Virus record (IMG/VR): IMGVR_UViG_3300046323_000061
Coordinates: 1 to 24,715 of that record
Strand: one strand, 5' to 3'
Source: a virus
Length of the DNA stretch: 24,715 nt
In this document: positions 752 through 24,715 of the stretch, one piece after another
How the letters are laid out: each line of letters opens with the position of its first letter
How positions within the stretch are numbered: the stretch's first letter is position 1
The notes under the pieces: model-generated
Database searches by the model: none
Told to the model about the DNA's origin: nothing
The model's input: the letters and a program-made list of their open reading frames with translations, nothing else
Translations under genes and position numbers: made by a program

Positions 752-761
752 GTAGAAAACT

Positions 762-3700
762 ATGCCACGTTACGAAGTCAATGCACCGGACGGGCAGCGT
801 TTTGAAGTTGATGCTCCAGAGGGGGCTACGCTTGAGGACGCTTTTGCCTATGTACAAAGTAATTTGTGGACACCTCTTGACGTCCAAGCAAAGAAGAAAC
901 GCACTTGGGGCGAAGCCGCTGGAGACATTGGTGGTAGTTTAACTAAAGGTGTTGGACAACTCGCACAACTGCCTGGGCAAGTAGCTGGATTAGTTACAGG
1001 TAATATTGACCCGGATACAGGGTTACAAGGTGTAGGAAAACAAATAGAACAGTTCGGAGAAGAACTTAAATCTCCTACTCTTAAAGCACGTCAAACATTA
1101 GCATCTCAAAAAATTGGTCAGGCAGACGGCTTACTAAATGAATTTGGTACCGCTATTAAAACGTATGCTACTGACCCAATGCTGGCTACCTCGTTTGTAG
1201 CTGAGCAATTACCTAACTTACTCGGTGCTGGTGCTGGCGGTGCTGCTACTAAAGTTGGTGTAAAAGCTGCAATGCGTGGGGCTACTAAAGAGGCTCTTGA
1301 AACTACCTTACCTAAAGCCGCAGTTCGTGGTGCAGTTGGTACAGGTGCTGTAATGCAAGGTGCTGATATTGGTACAGATACATTTGACTCTACGTTTAAA
1401 GGTCTTGTTGATGGTGGTATGTCGGCAATCGAAGCGTACCCAATCGCACTACAAAAAGGTCGTGTAGCCGCTATCGAAGCTGGTGGTCTTAGTGTGGCTA
1501 CTGCGTTCCTACCCGGTGGTACTGCTATTGAGCGTGCGCTAGTTGGTAAGGGTATGCCCGGTGCTGGTGGGTTCCTAAAAGGAGCTTTAGGCGAAGCACT
1601 ATCTGAAGGTATAGAAGAAGGTGGCGGAGCGTTTGCAAAGAACGTAGGTATGCAAGAAGCCTTGCCTGAAACAAGTTTAACTAAAGGTGTTGGTGCGGCA
1701 GCTGGACTTGGTGCATTAGGCGGTGCGTTATTTGGTGGTCCTGCAGGTGCTATTACAGGTATGCAAGACGCTGACAGAAATGCAGCTATTCAAGCAGTTA
1801 GAGACCAACACCAACAAGTTATCAATGCAGAAAATGAGGCAGCAGCAGCCGTAGATCAAGCACGTCGTGATGCCTATGCCGCCGAACAAGCTGCTACTGA
1901 AATGCGTATTATGCAGGAACGTCTTGGCGACCAATTTACACAGTCACAAGCATACGCAGACTTATCTGCACAAGTAGAAGCTGCACAGTTAAAAGCACAA
2001 GCTGCTGCCGACAAAATTCAAGCAGCACAAGCTAAAGTAGATGCTGGTAAAGCGCAGTTATCCGCCTTTGCTGAAGCTCAGCCTGATTTGTTTGGTATGG
2101 TATACCCTAAGATTCAAGAGCAAGCAGCCGCAGAACAACAAGCACGTGCAGAACAAGCGCAAGCTGGGCAAATGGAATTACCACTAGAAGCTCAAGCATC
2201 TTTAGGTTTGGAAGCTCCTGTACAGCCAGCTAGAATACCTGAAGCAGAACAAGAATTAGCTCCTGTGGGGCGCCTTGTTAATGAAGCTGATTTTAAGGCT
2301 ATGGGTGTAGGTAGTACTAATAAGAAGTTACGTGAACAGATTTTAGGTAAAGACTTAGCTGACCCTGCGCAAGCGCAAGAAGTCAAAGATATTTTAGAGA
2401 ACTACGCAAGTGGTGATCGTAGTGAACGGATTATCCAAGGTGTTACTAAGTTTATAGATGGAATTAAAACTCCTCAAGAACAATTAGGCTTGGGTTTACG
2501 CCGTCCATACGGTAGTATGAAGAAACCAGTTCCAGTAACTGAAACACCTATACAAGAGGAGGTAGCAAATGTTGGAGAACCTGTCGAAGCTATCCCCGGA
2601 ATTATTGAGCCAAGCATTCCAGAGCCTGTGGTCAGAAGAAGAGCTGCCCCTACCAAAGCAGTTGTTGAAGCTACAGGACGAGGAGTGGTTCCTACTGGGG
2701 GTATTGCTGGACTACCTGTTGGAAGAGAAGGAAATGTCCCTAGTGCATTAAGTGCGTATGACCAAGGCGCTATTGAAGGAGCAAAGCATAAAGATACTAA
2801 TAAATCAATTGGTGCAGTTCCTGAGCAAGGTTCCGAAGAAGCTAATAAGCAGTATGTAGAAGGCTATCTAGATGCTAAATGGGGCAAAATAAATAGAAAA
2901 ACTAAAGCAGAAACACCCGCACCTAAAGCTAAACCTAAGAAAGCCCCTGTTGCTGTTAATCCATTTGGACAATTAGTAGAAGCCGTTGCGCCTGAAAGCA
3001 AGCCTGACTTAACAGAAGACCAAGCCCGTGCAGTTATACCTGAGACGGCTGAGGAAACTCTTTCTCGGTTAGAAGTACCCCAAGAAACTAGCGCCGAAAC
3101 AGAAGAACTAATGCGTCAGTTGGGTATTCCTCCTAAGCTACAACGAGAAGGTACTCAAGGTGCAAGTAGTGAAAGTCTTACATCCGCAGTAGCTAAAGGT
3201 GACTTACGGAGTGCATTGGGTATTATTGCCCAAGATACATCAGGTACGTTTAACCCGTTAGAAGTTCAGATAGCTAAACGTTTACTAGCAAATAAAGGTT
3301 CACTGCCTAAGATTGAAGTTGTATCTAATTTAGATAGCTCAGGTTTATACAACCCGTTTACAGATACTATTCAGATCAAAGAAGGTGAAGTTGATTCGCA
3401 TACTGTATTGCATGAGGCTACACACGGTTTCTTACACGCTCTTATTGAGAAGTTTGAAAAAGACGGCATTAAGAATAAAGGTATTACAGACCTTAAAGGG
3501 GTCTATGACTTTATAGCTAAAGAACAGCCTAACCTAATGCAGACTTATGGTATGACTAGCCTGTCTGAGTTTGCTTCTGAAGTAATGTCTAACCGTGAGT
3601 TTCAAGCAGAGTTGGCACAGATTCCTTACCGCAGAGAGAACGCATTAACTGCGTTTATCAAGGCTGTACTAAATGCTTTAGGTATTTCTCCTAACGAGAA

Positions 3701-6401
3701 GTTTAGTGCTCTAGCTAGCGCATTAGTTGCAACCGACAGTGCAATGGCTATGGGGCGTAAAGTCCAAGAAGATGTTGTTACAGGCAAAGAAACACTACCT
3801 AAAGCTAGAGTTGAACGCTCTAACCTAGAAGATATTGACCGCCGTGCTGGTTATAGCAACGTTAAGCCTGACCCTAAGCAAGGGATCTTCAAGACTCTTA
3901 AAGGTACGGACAAAAAGCAGATTGAGTCTGGCACTAAGAACTTCCTAAACAAAGCTGAGACTATGTATTTCTCATCTGATGCTGCTTTGCAAAATGCAAT
4001 CCGTAAGGGTATGGAAGATAGTGGTATGAATTGGGAAGACCAAAAGCGTATGATGTTTATGAACGCTACTTCCCAAGCATTACATCCCGATGCAGTGGCT
4101 ATGCAGTTGTTGCAAGAAGGTGGAGTTGAGTATGAGAAAGATACTTACAAGTGGAAAGCCGTTAAGAAAGACGATAGCTGGCAATCTTTGATTAAAGACA
4201 TTAGCACTTTAGGTAAGAAGTATGGAGTTTCTACTGAGGAGATGAGTAACTATGCGCACCGTGCGTTTATCTCTGATCGTCTAAAAGGTTTGACTGGTAG
4301 TAAAGAAGATTTTTATAGTCACAAAACTCCTGAGCAAATTGCCGCTGGTATGGAATATTTTAAGGCTATCCCTGAGTTGCGTAAGCTACAAGAAAGCTGG
4401 AACAAAGTTCGTGCAAACGCTATGGATGCCGCAGTTGAGGGTGGGTTGTATTCTAGAAAGCAAGCGGACGAGTTGCTAGATATTATGGATTACGTGCCAT
4501 TCTTCCGTATGGAGCAGTTAGAAGCTAAACGAGGTCCAAAAGAGTATGGTCGTGGTTTACTAGACTTTGCCAAGGGTTATAAGATTCGTGGTAGTGAAGA
4601 TGAAGTTAATAATATCTTTGATAACATGGAACGTTGGGTTTCATATACCGTATCCCGTGCAGTTAAGAACCGTACTGCTTTGAACCTTTATGAAACTGCT
4701 AAAGAGTATTTACCTGAAGGTGAAGTTGTAGATTTACGTCAAGATGATACTACCCATAAAGAGCAGAATATTATTGACTTATGGGAAAACGGTCAGCGTA
4801 AGAAGGTAGAGTTTAAAGACCCATTATTCGTGCATGCGTTCCAAGGTGTAGAAGGTATATCCATACCGGTTTTTAAAAGTGCAGCTGCCGTTGCGAATAT
4901 CCTACGTAAGAACATTGTGTTGATGCCTTTGTTCTCGGTAAGTCAGTTGTCTCAAGATTCTATTGGTGCAATGTTTACATCGGGGCTACGCAACCCATTC
5001 TCTATTCCTATTGAAGTAGTTAAAGAATTTACTAAGACTTTACGTGGTACTAGCGCTACTCATGCTGAATTATCTAAGTATGGTGCAGTTGGTGTTCGTG
5101 ATTACTCTGCCGCTATTGCTCGTAATGATGCTGAGATTGTAGCTGGACTAGCCGCACCTACTAAGTTCCAAAAGATTCTGTCTCCGTTTGAGAAGTTTGC
5201 AATGGCTTCTGATAACGCAGTGCGTCAGGCTGTATATAACTTGACTATGAAAGAGACTAACGGGGATAAAGCGGCGGCTATTGAAAAGGCATTTGAGATT
5301 ATTAACTTTAAACGTTCTGGCGCTTCTGGTGGTGTGCAAGTTCTCAAACAAGTTGTACCGTTCTTTGGTGCGTACTTACAAGCTCAAAACGTAGCGTATA
5401 AAACTATTATGGGTAAGGGTATTTCCCCATCCCAAAAGAAAGAAGCACAGAGAGTATTGATGAGCACCTCCGCTAAGATTGCGGCGCTTGCTTTTATTTA
5501 TGCGGCAATTTGCGCAGATGATGATGACTATCAGAAGATGGATCCGACTATTCGTGACCGCCATTTGTTGATTCCGGGTACAGGCTTTATGTTGCCATTG
5601 CGACCTGACGTATTTATTCTTCCTAAGTTAGCGGCTGAGTATGCTTACCAAAGTATTACAGATCAAGGCTTTACAGATGGTAAGAAGATGCGTCGTGGTA
5701 TGTTTGATGCAGTGACTAATGCAATTCTTAGCCCAACTATTGTTCCTCAAGCTGTTAAACCATTAGCAGAAGTAATGGTGAACTACAACTTCTTTACAGG
5801 TCGCCCATTAGTAGGTATGGGTATAGAAAATAAAGTTACGGCTGAGCAATTTACTAATACAACTTCTGAACTAGCTAAGTTTTTAGGTAAGGCTGGTATT
5901 GTTGCCCCTGTGAACATTGACCATTTAATTAAAGGGTACTTAGGTACTACTGGTGGAATTGCATTACAGGCTACAAGTGCGGCGGCTAATATAGGTAGCA
6001 ACGTTCCTACACCTGAAAAGTCATTGCAAGATACCTTGGCTTCAACACCCGGCTTGTCGGCATTCTTTGTACGTGAGAACGGTGCGGCTTTGAAGAACGA
6101 TTACTATGAGTTACGTGGGGAAGTAGATAAGGCAGTAGCAACCTACAACAACATGGTTAAGACTGGTCGTGGAGAAGAAGCTAAAGAGTTCTTCGGGGAA
6201 AATAAAGAATTGTTTGCAGTTAAGAGCCAAGTAAACACTATTGAGCGTCAGCTAACTAAACTACGTGACAGAAGTAAAGTAATCTATGCGAGTACCAAAA
6301 TGTCTTCTGAAGAGAAGGGTGCGGAGTTAGACCGTATTAAGCAGATGGAAAACCGTATGCTGGCTAACATTAACGATATTCGTAGACGAGCAGGTTACTA
6401 A
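762..6401 (+). CDS. Giant polyvalent virion protein (LPD38-like), putative ejection protein with Zn-protease-like motif
   Basis: This is an 1879-residue protein. Residues 1-32 match the small N-terminal domain seen on many phage polyvalent proteins (MPRYEVNAPDGQ, then a Val-Asp-Ala-Pro-Glu-Gly turn). Residues about 140-335 are Gly/Ala-rich and hydrophobic. Residues 337-445 are an Ala/Gln/Glu coiled coil. Proline-rich linkers follow. HEATH at 884-888 with a downstream SEFASE glutamate segment resembles a gluzincin-type metallopeptidase site. Residues about 1290-1600 resemble LPD38 (large polyvalent protein domain 38), including PFFGAYLQAQN and a hydrophobic helix ending in DDDDYQ. The C-terminus is a charged coiled coil. 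Such proteins are thought to be packaged and injected with DNA. The ATG follows the upstream stop by 10 bases with no strong ribosome site, so translation may be coupled. Protease activity is an inference. Confidence 0.85.
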   Translation: MPRYEVNAPDGQRFEVDAPEGATLEDAFAYVQSNLWTPLDVQAKKKRTWGEAAGDIGGSLTKGVGQLAQLPGQVAGLVTGNIDPDTGLQGVGKQIEQFGEELKSPTLKARQTLASQKIGQADGLLNEFGTAIKTYATDPMLATSFVAEQLPNLLGAGAGGAATKVGVKAAMRGATKEALETTLPKAAVRGAVGTGAVMQGADIGTDTFDSTFKGLVDGGMSAIEAYPIALQKGRVAAIEAGGLSVATAFLPGGTAIERALVGKGMPGAGGFLKGALGEALSEGIEEGGGAFAKNVGMQEALPETSLTKGVGAAAGLGALGGALFGGPAGAITGMQDADRNAAIQAVRDQHQQVINAENEAAAAVDQARRDAYAAEQAATEMRIMQERLGDQFTQSQAYADLSAQVEAAQLKAQAAADKIQAAQAKVDAGKAQLSAFAEAQPDLFGMVYPKIQEQAAAEQQARAEQAQAGQMELPLEAQASLGLEAPVQPARIPEAEQELAPVGRLVNEADFKAMGVGSTNKKLREQILGKDLADPAQAQEVKDILENYASGDRSERIIQGVTKFIDGIKTPQEQLGLGLRRPYGSMKKPVPVTETPIQEEVANVGEPVEAIPGIIEPSIPEPVVRRRAAPTKAVVEATGRGVVPTGGIAGLPVGREGNVPSALSAYDQGAIEGAKHKDTNKSIGAVPEQGSEEANKQYVEGYLDAKWGKINRKTKAETPAPKAKPKKAPVAVNPFGQLVEAVAPESKPDLTEDQARAVIPETAEETLSRLEVPQETSAETEELMRQLGIPPKLQREGTQGASSESLTSAVAKGDLRSALGIIAQDTSGTFNPLEVQIAKRLLANKGSLPKIEVVSNLDSSGLYNPFTDTIQIKEGEVDSHTVLHEATHGFLHALIEKFEKDGIKNKGITDLKGVYDFIAKEQPNLMQTYGMTSLSEFASEVMSNREFQAELAQIPYRRENALTAFIKAVLNALGISPNEKFSALASALVATDSAMAMGRKVQEDVVTGKETLPKARVERSNLEDIDRRAGYSNVKPDPKQGIFKTLKGTDKKQIESGTKNFLNKAETMYFSSDAALQNAIRKGMEDSGMNWEDQKRMMFMNATSQALHPDAVAMQLLQEGGVEYEKDTYKWKAVKKDDSWQSLIKDISTLGKKYGVSTEEMSNYAHRAFISDRLKGLTGSKEDFYSHKTPEQIAAGMEYFKAIPELRKLQESWNKVRANAMDAAVEGGLYSRKQADELLDIMDYVPFFRMEQLEAKRGPKEYGRGLLDFAKGYKIRGSEDEVNNIFDNMERWVSYTVSRAVKNRTALNLYETAKEYLPEGEVVDLRQDDTTHKEQNIIDLWENGQRKKVEFKDPLFVHAFQGVEGISIPVFKSAAAVANILRKNIVLMPLFSVSQLSQDSIGAMFTSGLRNPFSIPIEVVKEFTKTLRGTSATHAELSKYGAVGVRDYSAAIARNDAEIVAGLAAPTKFQKILSPFEKFAMASDNAVRQAVYNLTMKETNGDKAAAIEKAFEIINFKRSGASGGVQVLKQVVPFFGAYLQAQNVAYKTIMGKGISPSQKKEAQRVLMSTSAKIAALAFIYAAICADDDDYQKMDPTIRDRHLLIPGTGFMLPLRPDVFILPKLAAEYAYQSITDQGFTDGKKMRRGMFDAVTNAILSPTIVPQAVKPLAEVMVNYNFFTGRPLVGMGIENKVTAEQFTNTTSELAKFLGKAGIVAPVNIDHLIKGYLGTTGGIALQATSAAANIGSNVPTPEKSLQDTLASTPGLSAFFVRENGAALKNDYYELRGEVDKAVATYNNMVKTGRGEEAKEFFGENKELFAVKSQVNTIERQLTKLRDRSKVIYASTKMSSEEKGAELDRIKQMENRMLANINDIRRRAGY

Positions 6402-10693: not shown

Positions 10694-10704
10694 TTTCTTC
10701 TCCA

Positions 10705-11085: not shown

Positions 11086-11109
11086 ATTCTTCTCCTTGTT
11101 TATATCTAT

Positions 11110-12927: not shown

Positions 12928-13148
12928 ATTCTTCTCCAATAGGAATACGACCAAAACCGTAGTTTTGATTCTTTATTTGTTACACCTTACGGGTGTTATT
13001 CGGTTGTCTCTTTACCCAAGGAAAAAGATGTACCTCACGGAAAGCAAGCCATCTAGTCAGTAACGACAACAGGTGCGGTTTGTTTGGGACAATGAATAAA
13101 CCCTGCTAGCACCACTCACACCTGACGCACTAGCACGTACGACTAAAC
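12928..13148 (-). other. Non-coding stretch with inverted repeats
   Basis: No credible reading frame on either strand. Visible structure: a perfect hairpin caaaac/gttttg with a 4-base loop (12952-12967); ACACC/GGTGT with a 5-base loop near 12985-13000; and an interrupted pair CAGGTG...CACCTG near 13070-13125. No sigma70 promoter was convincing and no T tract follows the hairpins. It is the longest gap in the leftward block, between an HNH-like gene and the helicase operon. A replication origin, a small RNA or a decayed gene are all possible. Confidence 0.4.
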
Positions 13149-13463: not shown

Positions 13464-13464
13464 A

Positions 13465-14133: not shown

Positions 14134-14308
14134 TAAGTTCCCCTGTTATATGGGTAAGTAATCGAACGTCTACAAAGGCATTCATCATGTGCTCATGCCC
14201 CTCTTTAAAATGCCTACCATTCATAGCAATCTCAAACTTCTTTAGGTGCTCTCTAGTGCGTATCAATAGGTCTGCGTAATCAAATACTTCTTCTTTAACA
14301 ATCGCCAT
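14126..14308 (-). CDS. Small helical unknown protein, 60 aa
   Basis: A TTG-start frame is slightly longer, but ATG at 14308 (MAIVKEEVFD) has GGAGAGAG just upstream, so I use it. The protein is wholly helical: an acidic N-terminus, a basic middle (RTREHLKKFEIAMNGRHFKEG) and a conserved-looking MNAFVDVRLLTHI. It lacks recognisable motifs. It overlaps the polymerase end by 14 bases and the nuclease start by 8 bases, so it is part of the same translated block. Confidence 0.65.
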   Translation of the reverse strand: MAIVKEEVFDYADLLIRTREHLKKFEIAMNGRHFKEGHEHMMNAFVDVRLLTHITGELSA

Positions 14309-16124: not shown

Positions 16125-16494
16125 GGTTGTACAATCTTCCGTATGTGGTTTGGTATGGTAGTAGTTCTTCTTCTTTTGCGTCGTGTAGGGCTTTAATCAT
16201 TGCTACTTGTTGCGCTACTGTTTGGTTGTGTTGATGGCTTGCCCGTAGGTCTAGTTCCCCTTGTTTATCTTCGTTGGGGTCAAGTAGTTCTTGCATTACT
16301 AATTCAGTAAACCTATCCCGTTCAATATCTCGTATCCCTTCGTCGAGAGCGTTTATTTCTTCTAAAGTAAGACAATGCCTAAAGCTATTCATTAGTCTCG
16401 ACCACTTGTTAGCATCTTCGTGTGGGTTATATATAAACTCTTCAGGGTGCGTCTCCATTCTAGCCAGCAGTATCTTTACCCCATCGTTCATCAT
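16105..16494 (-). CDS. Unknown phage protein, 129 aa
   Basis: I recognise no family. The protein is acidic and helical, with a middle coiled segment (EEINALDEGIRDIERDRF), a Gln/His-rich stretch (ASHQHNQTVAQQ) and a Tyr-rich end. ATG at 16494 lies in an ATGA overlap with the upstream winged-helix gene and follows GGAGG. It ends inside the polymerase start. Its position suggests a replication accessory role, but nothing in the sequence proves it. Confidence 0.65.
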   Translation of the reverse strand: MMNDGVKILLARMETHPEEFIYNPHEDANKWSRLMNSFRHCLTLEEINALDEGIRDIERDRFTELVMQELLDPNEDKQGELDLRASHQHNQTVAQQVAMIKALHDAKEEELLPYQTTYGRLYNHANIND

Positions 16495-16805
16495 GCACCT
16501 CCAAGATACTTATTCATAGCGTCAAACTTACACCCCTTAACTACAAACTTAACTCGTGCATCTTCTTTGCTAGCCTTTAGGCGAACCATCTGCAACTTAA
16601 CCAAGTCCTTAGTCAGTCGGTAGTGGATATTGGCAGGGGAGGCAAAGGCTTTACCAAACTTTAATGTCAGGTCAGTAACCCGAACATCTCGTTCTTCTTC
16701 CCAGCAATCGCTAAGAACCCCAAGCATTAGAATGTCCGTATGGTCTAGCTTAAACTTTGCATAGACTGCGTTCATCTTTGTGGCTAATTTACTTATGTTA
16801 CTCAT
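16491..16805 (-). CDS. Winged-helix (MarR-like) DNA-binding protein, 104 aa
   Basis: The layout is helix, helix (ILMLGVLSDCWEEE), a recognition-like helix near residues 40-65 (VRVTDLTLKFGKAF, then SPANIHYRLTKDLVKL), and a beta wing (MVRLKASKEDARVKFVV). This matches a MarR-like winged helix in size and order. Start at 16805 uses AAGGAAAG and an ATGA overlap with the upstream winged-helix gene. It could regulate middle genes or modify host transcription; the target is unknown. Confidence 0.65.
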   Translation of the reverse strand: MSNISKLATKMNAVYAKFKLDHTDILMLGVLSDCWEEERDVRVTDLTLKFGKAFASPANIHYRLTKDLVKLQMVRLKASKEDARVKFVVKGCKFDAMNKYLGGA

Positions 16806-17005
16806 GTGTCTTTCCTTATGGATACAAAATACTTATATGGCTTTGTTCTTAACTGATTAAGTTTTACTTCACCGTTATCGTAGAGTTCAGCTAAATATCT
16901 ACTTGTTGTGTAATACCCTAACTTCATAGCCCTAGCCACCTCTTTAATGGTCTTGGCATTACGACCACAAAGATACTTAACTATCTCCGACTTCTTGTTC
17001 TTCAT
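16802..17005 (-). CDS. Winged-helix DNA-binding protein, 67 aa
   Basis: A longer frame opens at 17035 but runs deep into the upstream gene. ATG at 17005 (MKNKKSEIVKYL) has GGTGG upstream and begins a clean domain. The segment AKTIKEVARAMKLGYYTTSR is a helix-turn-helix. It is followed by YLAELYDNGEV and a beta wing (KPYKYFVS), typical of small winged-helix or Rrf2/MarR-type modules. It overlaps the 104-residue winged-helix gene by ATGA, so the two may work as a pair. No target is visible. Confidence 0.65.
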   Translation of the reverse strand: MKNKKSEIVKYLCGRNAKTIKEVARAMKLGYYTTSRYLAELYDNGEVKLNQLRTKPYKYFVSIRKDT

Positions 17006-17264
17006 CGCATCGTTCCACCAAAGCGGCATAACCACAAATGTCTACTAGGTTATCTCTATGTGAGGGGTCATTAGCAAATCTAGCTACCTTAACAAGCATC
17101 ATCAAACCTGCAACATCTTTAGCAGATATACCCCCACCCCCTACCCTAGCATCTAGGTAAGCGTTCCACATGGTTGCAATAGTCTTAAGGTTCTTGCTCG
17201 GATGCCCGTAAGTCTTTTCCCTATCACCATAGATGATTAGGTTAGCTTCTTTTAATATGCTCAT
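16977..17264 (-). CDS. DUF6378-like phage protein, 95 aa
   Basis: The pattern ANLIIYGDREKTYGHPSKN, then an Asp-Val-Ala motif (KDVAGLMMLVKVAR) and a DNLVDICGYAAL end, matches my memory of DUF6378 phage proteins. All-helical proteins with a conserved D-R-x-x-x-Y-G-H-P start and a late Asp-x-x-Asp helix look like small MazG-type nucleotide pyrophosphatases, but activity is unproven here. ATG at 17264 is in an ATGA overlap with the upstream gene. A role in nucleotide metabolism would fit the polymerase neighbourhood. Confidence 0.75.
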   Translation of the reverse strand: MSILKEANLIIYGDREKTYGHPSKNLKTIATMWNAYLDARVGGGGISAKDVAGLMMLVKVARFANDPSHRDNLVDICGYAALVERCDEEQEVGDS

Positions 17265-17527
17265 TTCAACCCCTCTAATAATAAAAACGTAGTCATAGCT
17301 TCGTTAAGTGGTATATCTTCAGGCACTAAAAACATACTGTATTGCCAATCATAGCTACCATGTTTATCAGGCACTTTCTTACCAATCTCTAATGCCCTAC
17401 CATTCATTGCTGGAATAATACCAATACGAATGCTTGGGTCTGAACTACGCTCATGCGCTCTAACAGGTACACAAACATCTTTCACTAAACTACCTAACCC
17501 TAGCCACTTACGAATTAAATTCTTCAT
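17261..17527 (-). CDS. Unknown protein, 88 aa
   Basis: No family recognised. A basic N-terminus (NLIRKWLGLGSLV) is followed by a beta-rich middle (IRIGIIPAMNGRALEIG, then YDWQYSMFLVPED) and a helix (LNEAMTTFLLLEG). Start and stop overlap neighbours by ATGA, so it is translated as part of the chain. The hydrophobic start is too short and basic to call a signal peptide. Confidence 0.6.
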   Translation of the reverse strand: MKNLIRKWLGLGSLVKDVCVPVRAHERSSDPSIRIGIIPAMNGRALEIGKKVPDKHGSYDWQYSMFLVPEDIPLNEAMTTFLLLEGLK

Positions 17528-17943
17528 TTCTTCACCGCTTTCTTCTTAGGCTTTACTTCGCTTACTACTTGCATCTCTTTAACCTTTTGGTCTCGGTGAA
17601 TGTCCATGAGGTTCTGCACCTGTTGTTCTATCGTATCCGCCAAGGTTTCTAAGTGATCTCGTGCTGACCACAATGCACCGCTATGTGGGTCTTGAATATC
17701 TGCGGCTACTATCTCTATAACATCTTTTAAGTTACTAACTCTGCACGCTAAACTTTCAATCTCGTTAGCTACTTCCCATAAATCTTTCATTTGTGTTTCT
17801 CCTTTTTGTTGTGCTATGTATTGCTTAAGTATTGACGTTGTTCCTTCTTGGACTAGAAACTCAAGCCCTTCCTCGTCGTAAGTTACTTGTGCATTAGCCG
17901 ACCCATCAGGGTTCTCACTCTTTACCTTGAGGCTTATCGCCAT
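17524..17943 (-). CDS. Two-part unknown protein, 139 aa, with internal start
   Basis: I start at ATG 17943 (MAISLKVKSEN) because AAGGAG lies upstream; the longer frame would run through the zinc-ribbon gene. The N-terminal 50 residues form a small beta/alpha unit (VTYDEEGLEFLVQEG). From residue 52 a separate helical, coiled-coil part begins (MKDLWEVANEIESL), ending in a basic tail (KPKKKAVKK). Inside the frame, an AAGGAG ribosome site precedes ATG 17790. The gene may therefore be a fusion of two small genes or make two proteins. No function is recognised. Confidence 0.6.
   Translation of the reverse strand: MAISLKVKSENPDGSANAQVTYDEEGLEFLVQEGTTSILKQYIAQQKGETQMKDLWEVANEIESLACRVSNLKDVIEIVAADIQDPHSGALWSARDHLETLADTIEQQVQNLMDIHRDQKVKEMQVVSEVKPKKKAVKK
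17788..17805 (-). promoter_or_regulatory. Internal in-frame ribosome site and start
   Basis: On the minus strand AAAGGAG is followed by 8 bases and ATG (17790). It matches the strength and spacing of proven-looking starts in this block. It is in frame with the 139-residue gene, so it would yield a C-terminal 88-residue product. Confidence 0.5.
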
Positions 17944-18103
17944 CTTGCTTCTCCTTACATTGACACCATGTTGGGGACTTACCGCATACCGCACAATGCA
18001 CCTTAACTTCTTTCTTACCAAAGATACTGTCAAACTGAGCGTCGAATTTATCTAGCCCAACACTAAATGGTCTTGGCTTATCGCCTTTTCCTGAGTAACT
18101 CAT
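17915..18103 (-). CDS. Zinc-ribbon-like small protein, 62 aa
   Basis: The segment CAVCGKSPTWCQC (residues about 37-49) holds four cysteines as two Cys-x2-Cys/Cys-x-Cys knuckles, a likely zinc site. The flanks are charged and polar (KGDKPRPFSVGLDKFDAQFD). Start ATG at 18103 has GGGAGG upstream and overlaps the membrane-protein gene by ATGA. Small zinc ribbons in phages often bind nucleic acid or the host RNA polymerase; which applies here is unknown. Confidence 0.65.
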   Translation of the reverse strand: MSYSGKGDKPRPFSVGLDKFDAQFDSIFGKKEVKVHCAVCGKSPTWCQCKEKQDGDKPQGKE

Positions 18104-18279
18104 TTGCCCTCCCAGTAACGACGGCTTTCTTCAGCATCTTTACGGCATTTCTCTTGATACCTACCAATGCTCTGTGCCACTTTCAACCCAACAATAATCC
18201 AGTAGGCAGTCCACCACCAATTATCGGCATTGGATTCATACAAAAAGTAACCTACAAATAACGCTAACATCTCCATCAT
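18100..18279 (-). CDS. Small one-helix membrane protein, 59 aa
   Basis: Read directly from the gap between two larger genes. It starts MMEMLALFVGYFLYE, then has a short polar turn (SNADN) and an aromatic hydrophobic run (WWWTAYWIIVGLKVAQ). A charged tail with Cys and Arg/Glu follows (RYQEKCRKDAEESRRYW). The layout suggests a membrane anchor with a cytoplasmic coiled tail. AAAAGGAGAAG lies before the start, and ATGA overlaps join it to the VRR-NUC gene upstream and the zinc-ribbon gene downstream. It could be a host-takeover or superinfection protein; neither is shown. Confidence 0.65.
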   Translation of the reverse strand: MMEMLALFVGYFLYESNADNWWWTAYWIIVGLKVAQSIGRYQEKCRKDAEESRRYWEGK

Positions 18280-18608
18280 TCTTCTCCTTTTAGGAAATCA
18301 AACAGGACTCCAGCATCGGGAAACCCTGCATCTAATAACACCTTTAACGAACCTATCCCTGTTTCATCAACAAGTATTGAGATACCCCCGACGTTAATAA
18401 TGTCCATCAAGTTCTTCTCTTGTAGTGCTGTTGGCTTACCGCCGTTTGCCTTGCACTCGATACCAATGAACCGCCCTTTGATACAAGCCACAAGATCAGG
18501 CACACCTGACTTACCATACCCACCCGTTGCTGGCATGAAGTAGTAAGCCCCGTGTTCCGTTAATAACTTCTTAACTTTGTCTTTAACTTTCTTTTCGGGG
18601 GTAGTCAT
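18276..18608 (-). CDS. VRR-NUC family nuclease
   Basis: A 110-residue stand-alone VRR-NUC (PD-(D/E)XK) protein. It has Gly-x-Pro-Asp at GVPDL (Asp38), then IECKANGGKPT with Glu51 and Lys53, and Gln63 in ALQ. These give the metal-binding Asp, Glu and Lys of the family. Phage stand-alone members are thought to resolve or nick branched DNA, like Holliday junction resolvases. The length is usual for the type. ATG at 18608 directly follows the stop of the HTH gene. It is linked to the membrane-protein gene by ATGA overlap. Confidence 0.88.
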   Translation of the reverse strand: MTTPEKKVKDKVKKLLTEHGAYYFMPATGGYGKSGVPDLVACIKGRFIGIECKANGGKPTALQEKNLMDIINVGGISILVDETGIGSLKVLLDAGFPDAGVLFDFLKGEE

Positions 18609-18791
18609 CTAGTCCTCTAGTAAATCTTTTACGTTGATACCCATGTCAGCAAACTTCTGCTTGACCTTTTCGATTGCTCGTTTCTCCGTAGATGCAACTG
18701 TGCCAACTGCTAAGAACATCTTTTCAGCAATGTCTGTTTGGCTATACTCGTAGCAGTCGGACAACATCTTTTCTTTGAGGTTGTGATTCAC
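18609..18791 (-). CDS. Sigma region 4-like HTH protein, 60 aa
   Basis: The segment YSQTDIAEKMFLAVGTVAST plus a following basic helix (EKRAIEKVKQKF) matches the helix-turn-helix of sigma70 region 4 (pattern E-I-A-x2-L-x-I-S-x-G-T-V). The protein is little more than that domain, so it may bind -35 elements or the RNA polymerase flap as an anti- or co-sigma factor. The start is GTG at 18791, immediately after the stop of the secreted-peptide gene with only a weak ribosome site, so coupling is likely. An alternative ATG lies 8 codons in. Confidence 0.65.
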   Translation of the reverse strand: MNHNLKEKMLSDCYEYSQTDIAEKMFLAVGTVASTEKRAIEKVKQKFADMGINVKDLLED

Positions 18792-18938
18792 TTAGCATCC
18801 AATAGGTTTGAAGATTCCATCTCGGTCAGTATCCCAACAGCACATACCACCACGACCATCAGGCTGACACTTGGTTGCACCATAAGAGGTGATTGCGATT
18901 GCTGATAACAACATCATTACGAATAGTTTGTTCTTCAT
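18792..18938 (-). CDS. Secreted cysteine-rich peptide, 48 aa
   Basis: Read directly from a gap. Residues 1-21 form a classic signal peptide: MKNK, a hydrophobic core (LFVMMLLSAIAI), then TSYGA with an Ala at the cleavage site. The mature part is about 27 residues with four cysteines (Cys24, Cys33, Cys34, Cys48), the motif RGGMCCWDTDRDG and an end FKPIGC. Two disulfide bonds are likely in the periplasm. The ribosome site is AGGAGA, and an ATGA overlap joins it to the upstream coiled-coil gene. It may be a periplasmic effector, an inhibitor or a lysis accessory; I do not recognise a named family with confidence. Confidence 0.8.
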   Translation of the reverse strand: MKNKLFVMMLLSAIAITSYGATKCQPDGRGGMCCWDTDRDGIFKPIGC

Positions 18939-19108
18939 TGTATTTCTCCTGTTTGTTTGATTAAGGCACTACATTCTTCCTGCAACATCTTTACTTCTGC
19001 TTCTAACTGCGTAATACGATTCTGTTGTATATGTAATTGGTCTCGGAGCATTTGTTCTCTGTCATTTTCGTCTTCCATTAACCAGCCAAAGAATGGTATA
19101 GGTATCAT
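18935..19108 (-). CDS. Small coiled-coil protein, 57 aa
   Basis: Read directly from a gap. A hydrophobic N-terminus (MIPIPFFGWLM) is followed by an acidic then amphipathic coiled coil (RDQLHIQQNRITQLEAEVKM). The layout resembles small phage Rz-type spanin or scaffold-like proteins but is too short to assign. It starts after AAGGAAA in an ATGA overlap with the 65-residue gene and ends in an ATGA overlap with the secreted-peptide gene. The two may form an envelope-associated pair. Confidence 0.65.
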   Translation of the reverse strand: MIPIPFFGWLMEDENDREQMLRDQLHIQQNRITQLEAEVKMLQEECSALIKQTGEIQ

Positions 19109-19302
19109 TTGGGTTTCCTTACAATACGTTTCTTAACAGAGGCAAGACCAGCTTCTTCCTCGGGTTCTTCCATCATTAACTTAGCCATAGCTTTAGCAAG
19201 TGTAGGTATCTCATCAGGGTGGTAATCCCCATTAACTAAATACCCCACCATAGCTAAGCCTCTATATACCGCTTCTAAGTGTTCTTTATCTTGATTGTTC
19301 AC
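19105..19302 (-). CDS. Small unknown helical protein, 65 aa
   Basis: No family recognised. It is helical with an acidic cluster (MEEPEEEAG) and a strongly basic end (KKRIVRKPK). The start is GTG at 19302 in a GTGA overlap with the upstream gene; the ribosome site is weak, so coupling is likely. The charge separation suggests nucleic-acid or partner binding. Confidence 0.55.
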   Translation of the reverse strand: MNNQDKEHLEAVYRGLAMVGYLVNGDYHPDEIPTLAKAMAKLMMEEPEEEAGLASVKKRIVRKPK

Positions 19303-19664
19303 GATTCTTTAATCTTTTCTATTGCGTTAAATTGTTCTACTATTTCGGGGTGCTGGGCTAAGAAAAACCAAAAGATTTCTGCGGCTTTTGATATATCTAC
19401 TTCGTTGCCGTTAGGTTTTTGCCACACTACCCCATGCCCATTTAAATGTAACTTACCCCCCGAGTGAATGGTCTCCGCCATTAGGTTTGTCATCCCTGCA
19501 CTCGTGCTCGTTGTTTGTGAATATGGGTATGATGTTGCAGTCCCAATCCCTTGTGTTATATAACTCATCTTCCTACTCCTTATTCCTTTAACGGCTTCCG
19601 CCAACATGAACCCTGTAACTACCGCTATCCAAATTCCCCCTAGCGTTCCTATCAATATGTCCAT
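19299..19664 (-). CDS. Membrane-anchored protein with C-terminal KES module, 121 aa
   Basis: ATG at 19664 opens a hydrophobic helix (ILIGTLGGIWIAVVTGFMLA) and a basic stop-transfer (KGIRSRK). From there a second, well-supported start (ATG 19568 after AGGAG) opens the rest: a Ser/Thr/Tyr-rich stretch, a GGKLHLNGHGVVWQKPNG part and a C-terminal helix ending HPEIVEQFNAIEKIKES. This C-terminal module recurs in two genes at 23.3-24.1 kb. The first 77 bases are also coded by the end of the 138-residue gene in another frame. One gene with two products, or two fused genes, are both possible. Confidence 0.6.
   Translation of the reverse strand: MDILIGTLGGIWIAVVTGFMLAEAVKGIRSRKMSYITQGIGTATSYPYSQTTSTSAGMTNLMAETIHSGGKLHLNGHGVVWQKPNGNEVDISKAAEIFWFFLAQHPEIVEQFNAIEKIKES
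19566..19580 (-). promoter_or_regulatory. Internal in-frame ribosome site and start
   Basis: On the minus strand AGGAG (19580-19576) is followed by 7 bases and ATG (19568), in frame with the membrane-anchored gene. The expected product MSYITQGIG... lacks the membrane helix, so the site would separate soluble and membrane-bound forms. Confidence 0.55.
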
Positions 19665-20004
19665 CACCTAGCCCTTTTGCATATTCATTCCATTGTTTAG
19701 GTGTTGCCTTAATGTAATACATCTTGTCATCTTGGGCTTCCCTTTTCCATACACCGATACCATCTACAACTACTCCACGCCCAGCAGTTCTAAGCATAGC
19801 TATCTTGTCGGTAATAAAGTCAGGTAGCGTTCCATAAGGGCAGATCAATTGCTTGGGGTCAAACAACCTACCACCCATGACATGAGCATCAGCACTAATG
19901 ACCGCATCGTTATCTCTTAAGTAAACCCTAAGCGTGGCTAACTCATTAGAAAACTTCTCAAACAAATCATCAATAGCCTTAGCAAATCCTTCAGGGTCTT
20001 TCAT
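19588..20004 (-). CDS. Unknown phage protein, 138 aa
   Basis: I recognise no family. The N-terminus is acidic and helical (MKDPEGFAKAIDDLFEKF). A beta-rich middle follows (AVISADAHVMGGRL, then ICPYGTLPD) and then VVVDGIGVWKREAQDD. The last 26 residues lie opposite the membrane helix of the next gene in another frame and look unconstrained (NARGNLDSGSYRVHVGG). It starts in an ATGA overlap with the 120-residue gene after the shared tag AGAAAGGCACAAAA. Confidence 0.6.
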   Translation of the reverse strand: MKDPEGFAKAIDDLFEKFSNELATLRVYLRDNDAVISADAHVMGGRLFDPKQLICPYGTLPDFITDKIAMLRTAGRGVVVDGIGVWKREAQDDKMYYIKATPKQWNEYAKGLGDGHIDRNARGNLDSGSYRVHVGGSR

Positions 20005-20891: not shown

Positions 20892-20925
20892 ACGATTCTT
20901 CCTTGTTTTTATTATGTATCTATCT

Positions 20926-20954
20926 ATTGTAACTACTTTTGTTTTTAACAGCAA
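20926..20954 (-). promoter_or_regulatory. Candidate sigma70-type promoter for the small-gene chain
   Basis: On the minus strand TTGCTG (20954-20949) is followed by exactly 17 bases and TACAAT (20931-20926, 5 of 6 to TATAAT). The -35 is weak (3 of 6). It lies in a 70-base gap before the small genes, one of very few gaps in this block, and points in their direction. Confidence 0.45.
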
Positions 20955-20961
20955 CCCCTAA

Positions 20962-21768
20962 CTACACATATACAAAGTAAGTGTTTTCCCCATGTCGATA
21001 ACCAACATCTGGTAGTAACTTCTCTTTACCAACAAGTTTGAGAAGAGCGATAGCGTTTCTGGTAGCTTCAGGCAGTGGGTCAATAGCACAGAATTCTTCA
21101 GGTTCTAGGGCATGACCATCTTTGATATAGATAACCTTCTCACCACGCTCAATGACTGTATGGAATCTAGCATTTTTGGAACGACGTTCTTGGAATTCTT
21201 CATACGCTGGAATACCTGCTGCCGCTTTTTTAAACTTCTCAGTCTTGAATACCACACCCTGTTCTACAAGATGTTTTATTTCTTCGTATAGAACGTCATA
21301 CCCCATGTGAAACGGGTGAGTTGCCGTGCCAGCTTCGTTTAACCAAGCCTGATGACTTTGCTCTGCATTGCGTCTACCCTTAGCACTAATCTCATGCCAT
21401 TCAAATGGTTGTAACACATCCATCGCAATCTTTACTGCCTTCTTTACATCTTTAGTTCTGCGTGATGAGTGTTCGTTACCCCAATGCCCATACCTATCGT
21501 TCTGAACCTTGCGTGATGTAACCTTATATTCCTTTTCACTACGGTTACCATAAGTCCACTCGACTACACCTGCAAGGTCTACTGTTTCATCATCAGCAAA
21601 ACGAGCATCGTGGAAACGTAACTGCCAATGCTCAGGTCGGTGTGTGCTTTGCACCGCATTTACTACTAAGTAGTAAGGGACTTTAGCGTGTTTAAGTTCA
21701 AGTGCATTTAGGAAAGCCATTACAGGCGCACTCAGTTTAGTTTTATCTATGTCATTAAGTTGTAGCAT
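20962..21768 (-). CDS. Conserved unknown phage protein, 268 aa
   Basis: No family recognised. A helical start is followed by a Trp/His/Arg-rich middle (STHRPEHWQLRFHDARFADD, then GHWGNEHSSRRTKDVKKAV). A second half ends in beta strands (GEKVIYIKDGHAL, then ENTYFVYV). The pattern of many conserved aromatic and charged residues suggests a globular enzyme or a nucleic-acid-binding protein. Its start overlaps the 143-residue gene by 14 bases, so the two are co-translated. It ends before the promoter gap. Confidence 0.65.
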   Translation of the reverse strand: MLQLNDIDKTKLSAPVMAFLNALELKHAKVPYYLVVNAVQSTHRPEHWQLRFHDARFADDETVDLAGVVEWTYGNRSEKEYKVTSRKVQNDRYGHWGNEHSSRRTKDVKKAVKIAMDVLQPFEWHEISAKGRRNAEQSHQAWLNEAGTATHPFHMGYDVLYEEIKHLVEQGVVFKTEKFKKAAAGIPAYEEFQERRSKNARFHTVIERGEKVIYIKDGHALEPEEFCAIDPLPEATRNAIALLKLVGKEKLLPDVGYRHGENTYFVYV

Positions 21769-22186
21769 CTTCTTCCTCTACTTTCTTTAGTTTTGTTAAA
21801 TCAACCCCTGTCTCTACTGCTCTTACTACATAGGGATACTCAAGTTCATACCCATCATCGTTAAACCATTCTTCTTCGGTATCGTCGGACTCCTCACCTG
21901 TCCTCGCAAACTTAGCTTTAAAGTTCTCGTCAAAGTCCTCAGCTAGTTGTAGTAGTTCTGTAAAACCTCTTTGAGAATCCTCATACCACTTCCAATGGTT
22001 GTGAAAGAAATGCACACACCCGACAGGTGCGTCTTCCTCTAGTATTGGTTCCGCATAGTTCTGCACATACATAAACCGCAAGAAGTCTTTGAATATCTCT
22101 CGCCCATCTACTTTCATTAGGGCAATAAACTCGTCGGGGTCTCTTACAAACTCAATACAAAACGCTACTTCGCTTCGGTATCCCAT
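21755..22186 (-). CDS. MGYRSEV-type phage protein, 143 aa
   Basis: The start MGYRSEVAFCI is a signature I associate with a phage protein family of unknown function. The rest has alternating helices and strands, two aromatic stretches (FFHNHWKWYED), an acidic middle (ESDDTEEEWFNDDGYELEY) and an acidic end. ATG at 22186 has TAAGGAG upstream, 10 bases after the DUF3150 stop. It overlaps the 268-residue gene. The acidic surface may mimic DNA, but that is speculation. Confidence 0.7.
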   Translation of the reverse strand: MGYRSEVAFCIEFVRDPDEFIALMKVDGREIFKDFLRFMYVQNYAEPILEEDAPVGCVHFFHNHWKWYEDSQRGFTELLQLAEDFDENFKAKFARTGEESDDTEEEWFNDDGYELEYPYVVRAVETGVDLTKLKKVEEEDATT

Positions 22187-22196
22187 TTCGTTCTCC

Positions 22197-23036
22197 TTAA
22201 AACATACTTAAAATATCATCAACCTTAGACTTGACCGATGAACGAATAGCCTCGGACTCACGAATATCTGACGCATCCACCCCACTCAATGCCTTCTCGA
22301 GTTTCTGTCTTGCTTGCTCCATCTTAGGGTCATCAGTTATGTTGAGGCTTGTTAGCAAAGTGCACAGTTCAGTTGCGTTGGTGATTGTGGAATCCCAAAA
22401 CTTCTTCTTGTTCTCATCGGTGTAGTCAAGCCTCTCACTAATATGGGTCAGCGTTTCATGTAACCGAGTCCACGCATCTGCCATAGCATCAGCTAACTTC
22501 TGCTCGTAGTAAGACTTGTATTGTTGCTCTAACTCCGCCTTGGCTTCATCTTCTACTTGGATACGGAAATCACCTGCATCAGGCACAGGGCTAAACACAA
22601 ACTTAAAGCGGAATTTTTCTTTAAGGGAATCTGCCGTTGGGTATTCGCCTCGGTCAAATAATTCGCCAAGCGTGAACGCTGAACCTGAAACCAGTTGTGG
22701 ATACTCCGCTATAAACTCATCGACAGCTTGGTTAAATTGATTCTCAAAGTTGTTTAGAGTTTCTTTGTAATTAAAAAAGTTCTTCATAGGCAGTAAGCGT
22801 GAGCCACCATCTGACCAAGGCAAAGTCTGTTGATAGTTCCATGACCGCACCGCAGTTACAATCTTTTGCACTTTCTCTAGCTTGTCTGACCCTGCTAATA
22901 ACTTCTTGTGGTAGTTACCTGCACGAGCCTTAGTGCTCTTAGTTGCGTCGATTTCTTCAGATACTTTTTTGTCCATCTTGCGACCTGTCCATACAGAGAT
23001 GTTGAGGTCGATTAACATAGCGTTGCTTCCAATCAT
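22197..23036 (-). CDS. DUF3150 family protein, 279 aa
   Basis: The opening LIDLNISVWTGRKMDKKV, then ARAGNYHKKLLAG, TLPWSDGGSRLLP and a later coiled helical half fit my memory of DUF3150. In phages this family often lies next to a MoxR-type AAA ATPase and a VWA-like (DUF2201) protein, the CobS/CobT-like pairing. The partial VWA-like gene at the right edge supports that link here. I start at ATG 23036, with AAGGAG upstream and an ATGA overlap with the 79-residue gene; the frame is longer by 10 codons. It is probably a chaperone-like remodelling or metal-insertion partner; the exact role is unknown. Confidence 0.8.
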   Translation of the reverse strand: MIGSNAMLIDLNISVWTGRKMDKKVSEEIDATKSTKARAGNYHKKLLAGSDKLEKVQKIVTAVRSWNYQQTLPWSDGGSRLLPMKNFFNYKETLNNFENQFNQAVDEFIAEYPQLVSGSAFTLGELFDRGEYPTADSLKEKFRFKFVFSPVPDAGDFRIQVEDEAKAELEQQYKSYYEQKLADAMADAWTRLHETLTHISERLDYTDENKKKFWDSTITNATELCTLLTSLNITDDPKMEQARQKLEKALSGVDASDIRESEAIRSSVKSKVDDILSMF

Positions 23037-23272
23037 TTTAATTCTCCTTGGTTTAAAAGTTTGCACAATCCTTGTGCTTCGTGTTGCGTTAAATTCTTGT
23101 TGAGTAAGTGTGAACCTCTAGGTAGATTAGTTATATGGCAGGGTTTGTAAATCTCTTTTGTAATTCCCGCCCACATATCAGTTCTATTTACTTTAAACTC
23201 TGTTACCCTAATCACACACCATTGATGACTACCTTCTATTGCTTTCTTTTGCCACCATTGTTTGCGTATCAC
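23033..23272 (-). CDS. Small unknown protein with C-terminal AQ/KLL end, 79 aa
   Basis: The start is GTG at 23272, 1 base after the upstream stop, with AAGGGGG before it. The protein is basic and aromatic (KQWWQKKA), has a beta strand (QWCVIRVTEFKV) and ends NLTQHEAQGLCKLLN. That end is like NLTARQAQAIIKLLEE in the 67-residue gene at 24.1 kb, so they are probably diverged paralogues. Function is unknown. Confidence 0.6.
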   Translation of the reverse strand: MIRKQWWQKKAIEGSHQWCVIRVTEFKVNRTDMWAGITKEIYKPCHITNLPRGSHLLNKNLTQHEAQGLCKLLNQGELK

Positions 23273-23273
23273 A

Positions 23274-23504
23274 TTACCCCCTTACTTTATTTATTGCCCC
23301 GTATTGGTTAGCCATCTCAGGGTAAAACGACTCTGCCCATTCTATGTATTCCTCTAGGCTTTTTATTTCATCTGAAAGGTCTTTTACTTCATCTTGCAAG
23401 TTTTCTATTGTTTCATTACTTATGCCTAATGACTTCTCAAGTTCCTCTATCTCTGCCTCAAGTTGTTCCTCAACATCGGCAATCGCATCGCTAATTCTAC
23501 CCAT
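23274..23504 (-). CDS. Coiled-coil protein with KVRG end, 76 aa
   Basis: Residues 8-57 form a long, regular Glu/Leu/Lys coiled coil (EEQLEAEIEELEKSLG, then NLQDEVKDLSDEIKSLEE). The end YPEMANQYGAINKVRG resembles HPEIVEQFNAIEKIKES and YPEAVVEWDAVNKVKES of two other genes here. ATG at 23504 has GAGGAG upstream. It probably forms a dimer or trimer and carries a shared C-terminal module. Confidence 0.65.
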   Translation of the reverse strand: MGRISDAIADVEEQLEAEIEELEKSLGISNETIENLQDEVKDLSDEIKSLEEYIEWAESFYPEMANQYGAINKVRG

Positions 23505-23514
23505 ATCAATCTCC

Positions 23515-23676
23515 TCACTTACTACTCGGTAGTAACTTGTTACACAACATCTCCATAGCTTGCGAATGGGTCAATTCAAATCCCATCTCTTTCTCTAATA
23601 ACTTCTTAGTCTTTACAAACTTCTTCTTAGCTTCTGTCTTTAACATTAGCGTTTCAAATCCTCTAGCTTGTGCCAT
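23515..23676 (-). CDS. Very small basic helical protein, 53 aa
   Basis: Read directly from a gap. It starts MAQARGFETLMLKTEAKKK, basic, then a helix (KLLEKEMGFEL) and a second helix (HSQAMEMLCNKLLP). The layout suggests a small DNA-binding or RHH-like protein, but no motif settles it. The ribosome site TAAGGAG lies before ATG 23676. It overlaps the end of the 77-residue gene by 14 bases. Confidence 0.6.
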   Translation of the reverse strand: MAQARGFETLMLKTEAKKKFVKTKKLLEKEMGFELTHSQAMEMLCNKLLPSSK

Positions 23677-23893
23677 CTTGGTTCTCCTTAAGTAATTTCA
23701 TTACTGCTAATGCTTCTCGTCTATGTTTAATTCGGTCTGCTACCATCTTCGTGCCTTGCCATACTTGATACCTACCCTGTCTTGGCATCTCGATTCGGTT
23801 GTAGTTAGATAGGTGTTGGGTATATACCTCATCAAAGATAGCGTTAAGTCCGGGCATTAACTCTTTCATTAAATCTCGTCTGCTTATCGCCAT
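23663..23893 (-). CDS. Small unknown phage protein, 76 aa
   Basis: A GTG one codon earlier is possible, but ATG at 23893 follows AAGGAG and overlaps the upstream stop (TGATG). The N-terminus is helical and basic (SRRDLMKELMPGLNAIFDEV), followed by a short strand (GRYQVWQG) and a basic helix (HRREALAVMKLLKENQDG). No family recognised. The charge suits nucleic-acid binding. Confidence 0.6.
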   Translation of the reverse strand: MAISRRDLMKELMPGLNAIFDEVYTQHLSNYNRIEMPRQGRYQVWQGTKMVADRIKHRREALAVMKLLKENQDGTS

Positions 23894-24114
23894 CACGACT
23901 CCTTTACTTTATTAACCGCATCCCATTCAACGACGGCTTCGGGGTAGTGCATCTTTACAAAGTGAATAAAGTCAATGAAGTTTCTATTCTCATACCGCAG
24001 TTGTTCAAATAGTTCTGCCTCATATTTATCAGCACCACTAATAACTTCTTGCCTACCAGCTTCCTTACCCATCTGATATATAAATCGCAGTTCGTCTTGT
24101 GTTATGTCCATCAT
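23893..24114 (-). CDS. Small helical protein with KVKES end, 73 aa
   Basis: An acidic helical start (MMDITQDELRFIYQMGKEAG) is followed by a coiled part and the end NFIDFIHFVKMHYPEAVVEW and DAVNKVKES. The end is shared with the membrane-anchored gene at 19.3 kb (IEKIKES) and the coiled-coil gene at 23.3 kb. The start overlaps the 67-residue gene by ATGA after GGAGG. It is likely a member of one family with variable N-termini. Confidence 0.6.
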   Translation of the reverse strand: MMDITQDELRFIYQMGKEAGRQEVISGADKYEAELFEQLRYENRNFIDFIHFVKMHYPEAVVEWDAVNKVKES

Positions 24115-24308
24115 TCCTCCAATAGTTTTATGATTGCTTGTGCTTGTCGTGCAGTTAGGTTATCCCTAAAGACTTTGTATTTGTCGGTGCTCATCGGAAT
24201 AAACTTAAGCACTTGCCACCTACCTTTAGACTTCATGTGAATGATATGTTCGCTTCGTCTCCACATCTGTTGTCCTGTATACACATCTTCTCCTAAGTTA
24301 TCCCACAT
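24111..24308 (-). CDS. Small unknown protein with C-terminal AQ/KLL end, 65 aa
   Basis: The frame opens with GTG two codons earlier, but AGGAGG lies in position for ATG 24308 (MWDNLGED), so I start there. The protein has an aromatic basic middle (MWRRSEHIIHMKSKGRWQVL) and ends RDNLTARQAQAIIKLLEE, the relative of the 79-residue gene's end. Function is unknown. Confidence 0.6.
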   Translation of the reverse strand: MWDNLGEDVYTGQQMWRRSEHIIHMKSKGRWQVLKFIPMSTDKYKVFRDNLTARQAQAIIKLLEE

Positions 24309-24317
24309 AGGCACCTC

Positions 24318-24452
24318 CTAAAATATTTTGACCATGACTTCTGCTACTTCTTTTGAAAGCCCCTCTACTAGGCGATACTTCTTTTTTACATCTTTCGCCC
24401 TAGCAAAGAGATACTTATCCATCACCCTCAAAATGCAATAGTCGTTCTCCAT
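24318..24452 (-). CDS. Very small basic protein, 44 aa
   Basis: Read directly from the gap after the VWA-like gene. MENDYCILRVMDKYLFARAK is followed by a basic stretch (DVKKKYRLVEG) and a helix (SKEVAEVMVKIF). The start is ATG 24452 in a TGATG overlap with the VWA-like stop, with AAGGGAG upstream. No family recognised. Confidence 0.55.
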   Translation of the reverse strand: MENDYCILRVMDKYLFARAKDVKKKYRLVEGLSKEVAEVMVKIF

Positions 24453-24715
24453 CACTCATCTCCCTTAACATGGACTGATACTCCGCATGGTGCTACTTGA
24501 TTAGTTGTGATACCCCAAAACACAGGGTGCTTCCAATCGCCCCACCCATCTATATAGCCGTCAGTCAGCACGATTACACATTCAGGGTTTAACTTGTTAG
24601 CCTCGATATACTTAGGAATACATTTAGCTGAAGTGCCACCACCGCCCGCAGGTTTAGTTGATGACATGATTGCCTCGTAATCGCCTCGGTCATACTTCTC
24701 GTGAGCACATACCGC
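24452..24715 (-). CDS. VWA-like metallopeptidase-type (DUF2201-like) protein, C-terminal part
   Basis: The frame is open to the right edge, so this is only the last 87 residues; the Met at 24667 is internal. It holds HEKYDRGDYEAI, then a KPAGGGGTS turn, then CVIVLTDGYIDGWG, which fit the second half of a VWA-like domain (metal-site Thr after the glycine run and Asp in L-T-D-G). This pattern is known from DUF2201 VWA-like proteins next to DUF3150 and MoxR-type ATPases in phages. The lost N-terminal part should hold the metallopeptidase-like domain. It probably acts with an AAA+ ATPase encoded to the right of the window. Confidence 0.75.
   Translation of the reverse strand, partial: AVCAHEKYDRGDYEAIMSSTKPAGGGGTSAKCIPKYIEANKLNPECVIVLTDGYIDGWGDWKHPVFWGITTNQVAPCGVSVHVKGDE

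Follow-up and report, generated by a model that had tools for sequence, protein, structure and literature searches.

A DUF3150 gene as a likely third component of an AAA+ ATPase and metallopeptidase-VWA module in an uncultured phage lineage and on plasmids

The stretch analysed in this study, hereafter the window, is a 24,715-nt fragment of an uncultured phage (IMG/VR record IMGVR_UViG_3300046323_000061, positions 1–24,715). Its right end carries, on one strand, a gene for a DUF3150 protein (D), a run of small open reading frames (ORFs) and the last 264 nt of a metallopeptidase-VWA gene (V); the rest of V, encoding the N-terminal ~310 residues with the HExxH motif, lies beyond the right edge. 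Neighbouring genes in this run overlap by 4–14 nt or sit 1–10 nt apart, in an operon-like arrangement (Table 1). In related contigs, V follows an AAA+ ATPase gene (A), which is preceded by a gene for a protein of ~300 aa (U); F denotes the 268-aa neighbour downstream of D. A previous reading made from the letters of the window had proposed a MoxR-ATPase/VWA/DUF3150 module with its ATPase outside the record, and the relatives bear this module out, in the order A-V-small ORFs-D; neither outcome named there as counter-evidence arose. That reading missed the metallopeptidase domain, the plasmids that carry the same trio and the phage role already proposed for A-V.

Table 1. Positions of the genes and ORFs of the window discussed in the text.
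Feature	Coordinates	Strand	Length	Remarks
V, C-terminal part of metallopeptidase-VWA (DUF2201_N + DUF2201)	24452..24715	-	87 residues	runs off record; GGGGT and LTDG elements of the metal ion-dependent adhesion site (MIDAS) present
s7	24318..24455	-	45 aa	4-nt overlap with V stop; no copy found in relatives
s6	24111..24314	-	67 aa	in 10 loci; variable cargo
s5	23893..24114	-	73 aa	not found in relatives
s4	23663..23896	-	77 aa	in 10 loci
s3	23515..23676	-	53 aa	only widely conserved gap ORF; in 58 loci, including overlapping copies of one contig
s2	23274..23504	-	76 aa	predicted coiled coil; in 5 loci
s1	23033..23272	-	79 aa	overlaps D start by 4 nt; in 9 loci
D, DUF3150 protein	22197..23036	-	279 aa	mostly helical; ATG at 23036, alternative start GTG at 23066
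Sigma-70 region 4-like ORF	18609..18791	-	60 aa	adjoins the Hjc-like gene
Hjc-like Holliday junction resolvase gene	18276..18608	-		retained in most relatives
LPD38-containing protein	762..6401	+	1879 aa	

The product of D matched Pfam PF11348 (DUF3150) with E 1.6e-6 and 28.1 bits against a gathering cut-off of 24.9, which confirms the family that the previous reading had named. Two scans of IMG/VR with D returned 101 stretches and, with a broader setting, 169, and the loci kept comprised 96 distinct D loci. Relatives of D were present in at least 101 stretches, at up to 86% identity over the full length and 99% in one partial copy. All loci were gathered through D or V alone, and their contigs represent one broad phage lineage. 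No confirmed relative of D was found in the bacterial chromosome contigs searched.

The V fragment alone gave a sub-threshold match to DUF2201 (E 0.011, 16.3 of 26.4 bits) and a clear match to phrog_1314 (E 2.6e-12). It was up to 87% identical to full-length homologues, which matched both DUF2201_N (E 5e-31 to 9e-28) and DUF2201 (E 4e-13 to 1e-10). HExxHxxxxH was present in 69 of the 72 complete copies in relatives, and DxSGS and GGT in all 72. Across 31 aligned phage copies, HExxH was invariant and the MIDAS residues DxSxS, T and D were retained; among 20 copies from other phages and plasmids, HExxH occurred in 19. A structure model of V (predicted local distance difference test score, pLDDT, 76) matched VWA folds, including the MIDAS domain of midasin. 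Many RefSeq phage records label phrog_1314 and the V family 'HNH endonuclease'. Pfam assigned DUF2201_N and DUF2201 only, so that identity was rejected, and the label is probably a propagated misannotation.

The record stops at 24715, and therefore does not contain the ATPase; a search with its exact 29-nt end returned no match that would extend it. In the relatives, A followed by V was found upstream of D in all 48 of the distinct D loci with at least 4.5 kb of upstream sequence, which places A past V as predicted. Because every relative with sufficient flanking sequence contains A, the predicted ATPase exists, and because the loci were gathered through D or V alone, its presence is an independent finding. 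Complete copies of A carried Walker A and Walker B in 58 of 58 cases, exceeded the Pfam cut-offs for AAA_5 and AAA, and matched phrog_1297 ('ATPase'). Compared with solved proteins, the A profile matched midasin best (E 3e-31), then Clp-type proteins, with NorQ lower. These matches identify A as a predicted MoxR/midasin-like AAA+ ATPase. The relatives thus contain the features of the phage MoxR-vWA-metallopeptidase pair, namely a MoxR-like AAA+ gene next to V, HExxH and a complete MIDAS, of which the window holds the C-terminal part of V. U stood ahead of A in 37 of 37 loci with at least 6 kb upstream. This gene (6359–7321 in the related contig L005, and its equivalents) is fast-evolving, lies directly upstream of A and gave no family match of note; its N-terminus bears a conserved KPIRGR...RP..RRRDWE stretch. 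U was not found as a general partner outside this phage lineage.

In the window, 1,415 nt separate the V stop from the D start, in agreement with the previous estimate of about 1.4 kb. Six ORFs of 53–79 aa lie in this gap, as had been counted, and the 45-aa s7 makes seven, so that the count was one short if s7 is included. The suggestion that these small genes are partners of the module fared less well: the gap ranges from 12 to 1,182 nt in 69 distinct relatives and s3 alone is widely kept, and therefore the small ORFs, with the possible exception of s3, were rejected as partners. They are mostly variable cargo.

In the 21 loci with all four genes, mean pairwise identity was highest for A (73%), followed by V (65%) and D (63%), and fell to 32% for U. 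In the same loci, identity to the window's own proteins was 64–76% for the DNA polymerase, the range of A, V and D, and 22–68% for F, whereas several small genes were absent. A, V and D resemble the DNA polymerase in identity while their neighbours are divergent; they therefore behave as one constrained unit, about as invariant as the linked polymerase. The module is located upstream of, and co-oriented with, the Hjc-like gene, an exonuclease gene, the DNA polymerase gene, a SNF2-type helicase gene and a primase/helicase-like gene.

D was also found beside A and V in other phages and on plasmids. It occurred in 3 of 50,697 phage records, compared with 773 for V. Synechococcus phage MinM2 has the order A-x-D-xxx-V, and two Planktothrix phage records of equal length also match. 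D matched 44 plasmid records, and the neighbourhoods of six were read. A, D and V are directly adjacent on Burkholderia, Cupriavidus, Variovorax and Rhodovastum plasmids, and a Simplicispira plasmid has A, several genes, and then D-V. In the Burkholderiales and Rhodovastum plasmids all three genes are homologous to those of the phage (identity 29–31% for D, 22–30% for V and 21–26% for A), but the order is A-D-V instead of A-V-D, and the context is that of a plasmid, where PRTRC or type IV secretion genes sometimes lie close by. On the trees of A and V, the D label has to change two to three times and several branches are long; the D-bearing A/V may have a single origin. A Candidatus Manganitrophus plasmid (L169) carries a DUF3150 gene by a different AAA gene, together with DUF1257 and DUF2997 genes, and has no V.

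A more divergent set is located on the IncP-7 plasmid pCAR1, where ORF101-103 encode, as neighbours, a CbbQ_C-type AAA protein, a DUF3150 protein (307.6 bits, above the Pfam cut-off) and a NorD/CoxE-like VWA protein. As in the phage lineage, AAA+, DUF3150 and VWA genes adjoin, here on a conjugative element; however, the AAA protein has a CbbQ_C domain and the VWA protein belongs to another family that lacks DUF2201_N. The similarity between the DUF3150 proteins of pCAR1 and the window is remote (hmmsearch E 5e-4, hhalign probability 72). Since it is weak, the link rests mainly on the common Pfam family and the same type of neighbourhood. ORF100-103 of pCAR1 are reported to be conserved in R478, Rts1, SXT and R391, and only the MoxR and VWA genes were discussed (PMC2642839).

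The CbbQ_C domain and NorD-like name of the pCAR1 set, the NorQ match of the A profile and the common broad AAA+/VWA architecture would agree with metal chelation or cofactor insertion of the CobS/CobT, magnesium-chelatase or NorQ/NorD type, an analogy that the sequence-only reading had also drawn for CobS/CobT. With E limits from 0.05 to 1, however, phage A, V and D gave no Pfam match to CobS, CobT or chelatase families, and V carries an N-terminal metallopeptidase domain. Chelatase-type VWA proteins are not known to carry such a domain. No cofactor biosynthesis gene was identified near the module in this lineage, and no CobN was noted in the flanks read, which belong to fragmentary contigs. 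We regard a chelatase role as very improbable.

Pairs of A and V without D are widespread, and were found in the N4-like phages LIT1 and EcP1, in PA5oct, phage G, the rv5-like LL12, Asteriusvirus, Eneladusvirus, S-TIM66, Sulfitobacter and Rhizobium phages, and on plasmids. No DUF3150-like gene was detected in the flanks read around ten such phage pairs, and hmmsearch --max and hhalign gave no convincing match to D near the N4-like, PA5oct, phage G, rv5-like, TM27A and Rhodococcus pairs. In an Arcobacter plasmid with an A-x-V set, the middle gene was rejected as a D (hhalign probability 0.7). Plasmid pSYSA of Synechocystis PCC 6803 (L180) has adjacent A and V, no D, and toxin-antitoxin-like genes nearby.

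MoxR/vWA pairs have been described as machines that use ATP for remodelling, with the VWA protein capturing the target (PMC7159879). The jumbo-phage MoxR-vWA pair (PMC7824862) and gp24/gp25 of N4, listed without function (PMC7650795, PMC2784036), resemble the present genes: the A and V families match by profile (LIT1, PA5oct), A precedes V, and the vWA protein has an N-terminal metallopeptidase domain. The difference is the DUF3150 gene that follows in this lineage. RavA-ViaA and midasin (Rea1/MDN1) likewise combine an AAA+ ring with a MIDAS VWA partner to remodel a complex, and midasin is the best solved match of A; their cellular targets are known. Neither a metallopeptidase nor a DUF3150 protein is known from these two machines.

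We tentatively propose, at slightly below an even chance, that A, V and D assemble into a single ATP-driven machine for protein remodelling or proteolysis, in which D is a third subunit or adaptor, and that this machine probably acts in replication or host takeover instead of capsid building. In the predicted complex, A would be the MoxR/midasin-like AAA+ ring that powers the machine by ATP. V would serve as its co-chaperone, with the VWA domain binding the target through the MIDAS metal and coupling it to the ring, and the zincin-like N-terminal domain of V could cut that target. The helical D, found only in a subset of systems, would be added as an adaptor or scaffold that narrows target choice. 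In this phage, the most likely target would be a host or phage complex of the replication or takeover phase, not the capsid. The reading of D as a third subunit follows from its recurrence by A-V across hosts and gene orders, and from a constraint as strong as that on A and V. Replication or takeover is favoured over virion assembly because the module lies by replication genes, N4-like pairs adjoin helicase and polymerase genes, and plasmids that make no virion keep the module.

Several observations weigh against this proposal. The structure model of D is of medium confidence (pLDDT 73, predicted template modelling score 0.45), and the fold search gave no solved relative of D at E <= 0.001. 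The V of the Variovorax plasmid is the copy that lacks HExxH. The list of V's best fold matches contained no zincin, and the metallopeptidase activity of V therefore stays a prediction, drawn from a Pfam name and a motif. Most A-V pairs have no D, and D is therefore dispensable for the basic function. This last point would also suit D being a co-inherited neighbour and not a partner of A-V, as would the V-D spacing in this lineage, which reaches 1.2 kb, and the Manganitrophus plasmids, where D accompanies a different AAA gene in the absence of V. On the other side, D recurs by A-V in unlike lineages, in two gene orders and on both phages and plasmids, and a DUF3150 gene on pCAR1 is flanked by AAA and VWA genes from a different family. 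Mere co-inheritance seems quite improbable on this evidence.

Also adverse to the proposed machine of replication or takeover are two observations on D-less pairs: the ATPase of PA5oct is annotated 'ESI-MS/MS' (electrospray ionisation tandem mass spectrometry), as are the structural proteins of that phage, and in Eneladusvirus the pair is set among structural genes. Both fit a virion-assembly chaperone and processing protease, in which A-V(-D) would remodel and cleave structural proteins, the role proposed for jumbo-phage pairs (PMC7824862), with Acidianus two-tailed virus as a further analogy. However, in the present lineage, in N4-like phages and in Rhizobium phage TM27A, the neighbours of the pair are genes for replication or nucleotide metabolism. 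In phage KP8, the ATPase and metallopeptidase genes belong to an RNA- and DNA-synthesis cluster, and neither product was among the few virion proteins identified by matrix-assisted laser desorption/ionisation (PMC6950046). Plasmids, moreover, retain A-D-V without any virion. Virion assembly is considered rather unlikely.

The occurrence of the module on both phages and conjugative plasmids, together with small variable genes nearby, would also be expected of a conflict module that disables host defence or competing elements, thereby serving counter-defence on phages and establishment or exclusion on plasmids. MoxR-vWA proteins are core to described conflict systems (PMC7159879). However, none of the phage proteins U, A, V and D had a PADLOC match, and one plasmid A matched IetA only marginally. 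A, V and D are slow-evolving and always present in the lineage, unlike typical accessory anti-defence genes. With regard to the VMAP-type parts of such systems (PMC7159879), D and U had no Pfam or PADLOC match and V had no effector domain, in searches that included no VMAP-specific profile. We consider a conflict role unlikely.

The A-V pair is already known, and DUF3150 as a recurrent third gene of phage and plasmid AAA+/VWA modules appears to be undescribed; the term DUF3150 was not found in the literature searched, where descriptions may stand under other names. Judged by gene content and order, DUF3150 is likely an overlooked third part of a machine so far known as a two-gene pair. With somewhat more reserve than for the phage machine itself, we suggest that it may be a general third subunit of mobile-element AAA+/VWA machines, joined to metallopeptidase-VWA proteins in phages and Burkholderiales plasmids, to NorD-like VWA proteins in pCAR1-type and reportedly SXT/R391-type elements, and to another AAA protein in Manganitrophus. 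It would adapt an ATP-driven unfoldase or protease to targets that foreign DNA must remodel on arrival or in replication. Few uncharacterised phage genes are as widespread as the homologues of N4 gp24/gp25, many of which are labelled 'HNH endonuclease'. Their link to DUF3150 and the plasmid modules provides experimentally tractable handles, as relatives of some parts are carried by N4, which grows on E. coli K-12, by the Synechocystis PCC 6803 plasmid pSYSA and, in P. putida KT2440, by pCAR1, and it would supply a first functional hypothesis for DUF3150.

Further features were noted elsewhere in the window. The Hjc-like gene is adjoined by the sigma-70 region 4-like ORF (Table 1). The 1879-aa protein contains an LPD38 polyvalent-protein domain (E 4e-23) and partly matches phrog_2206 (E 2e-16), the family of N4-type virion RNA polymerases. 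Sigma-70-like promoter matches were rarer than in shuffled sequence, with 0 against 8.1 at 20900–24715 and 23 against 38.8 at 1–20000, a scarcity that might be expected if much of the region is transcribed in long operons or by a different polymerase.

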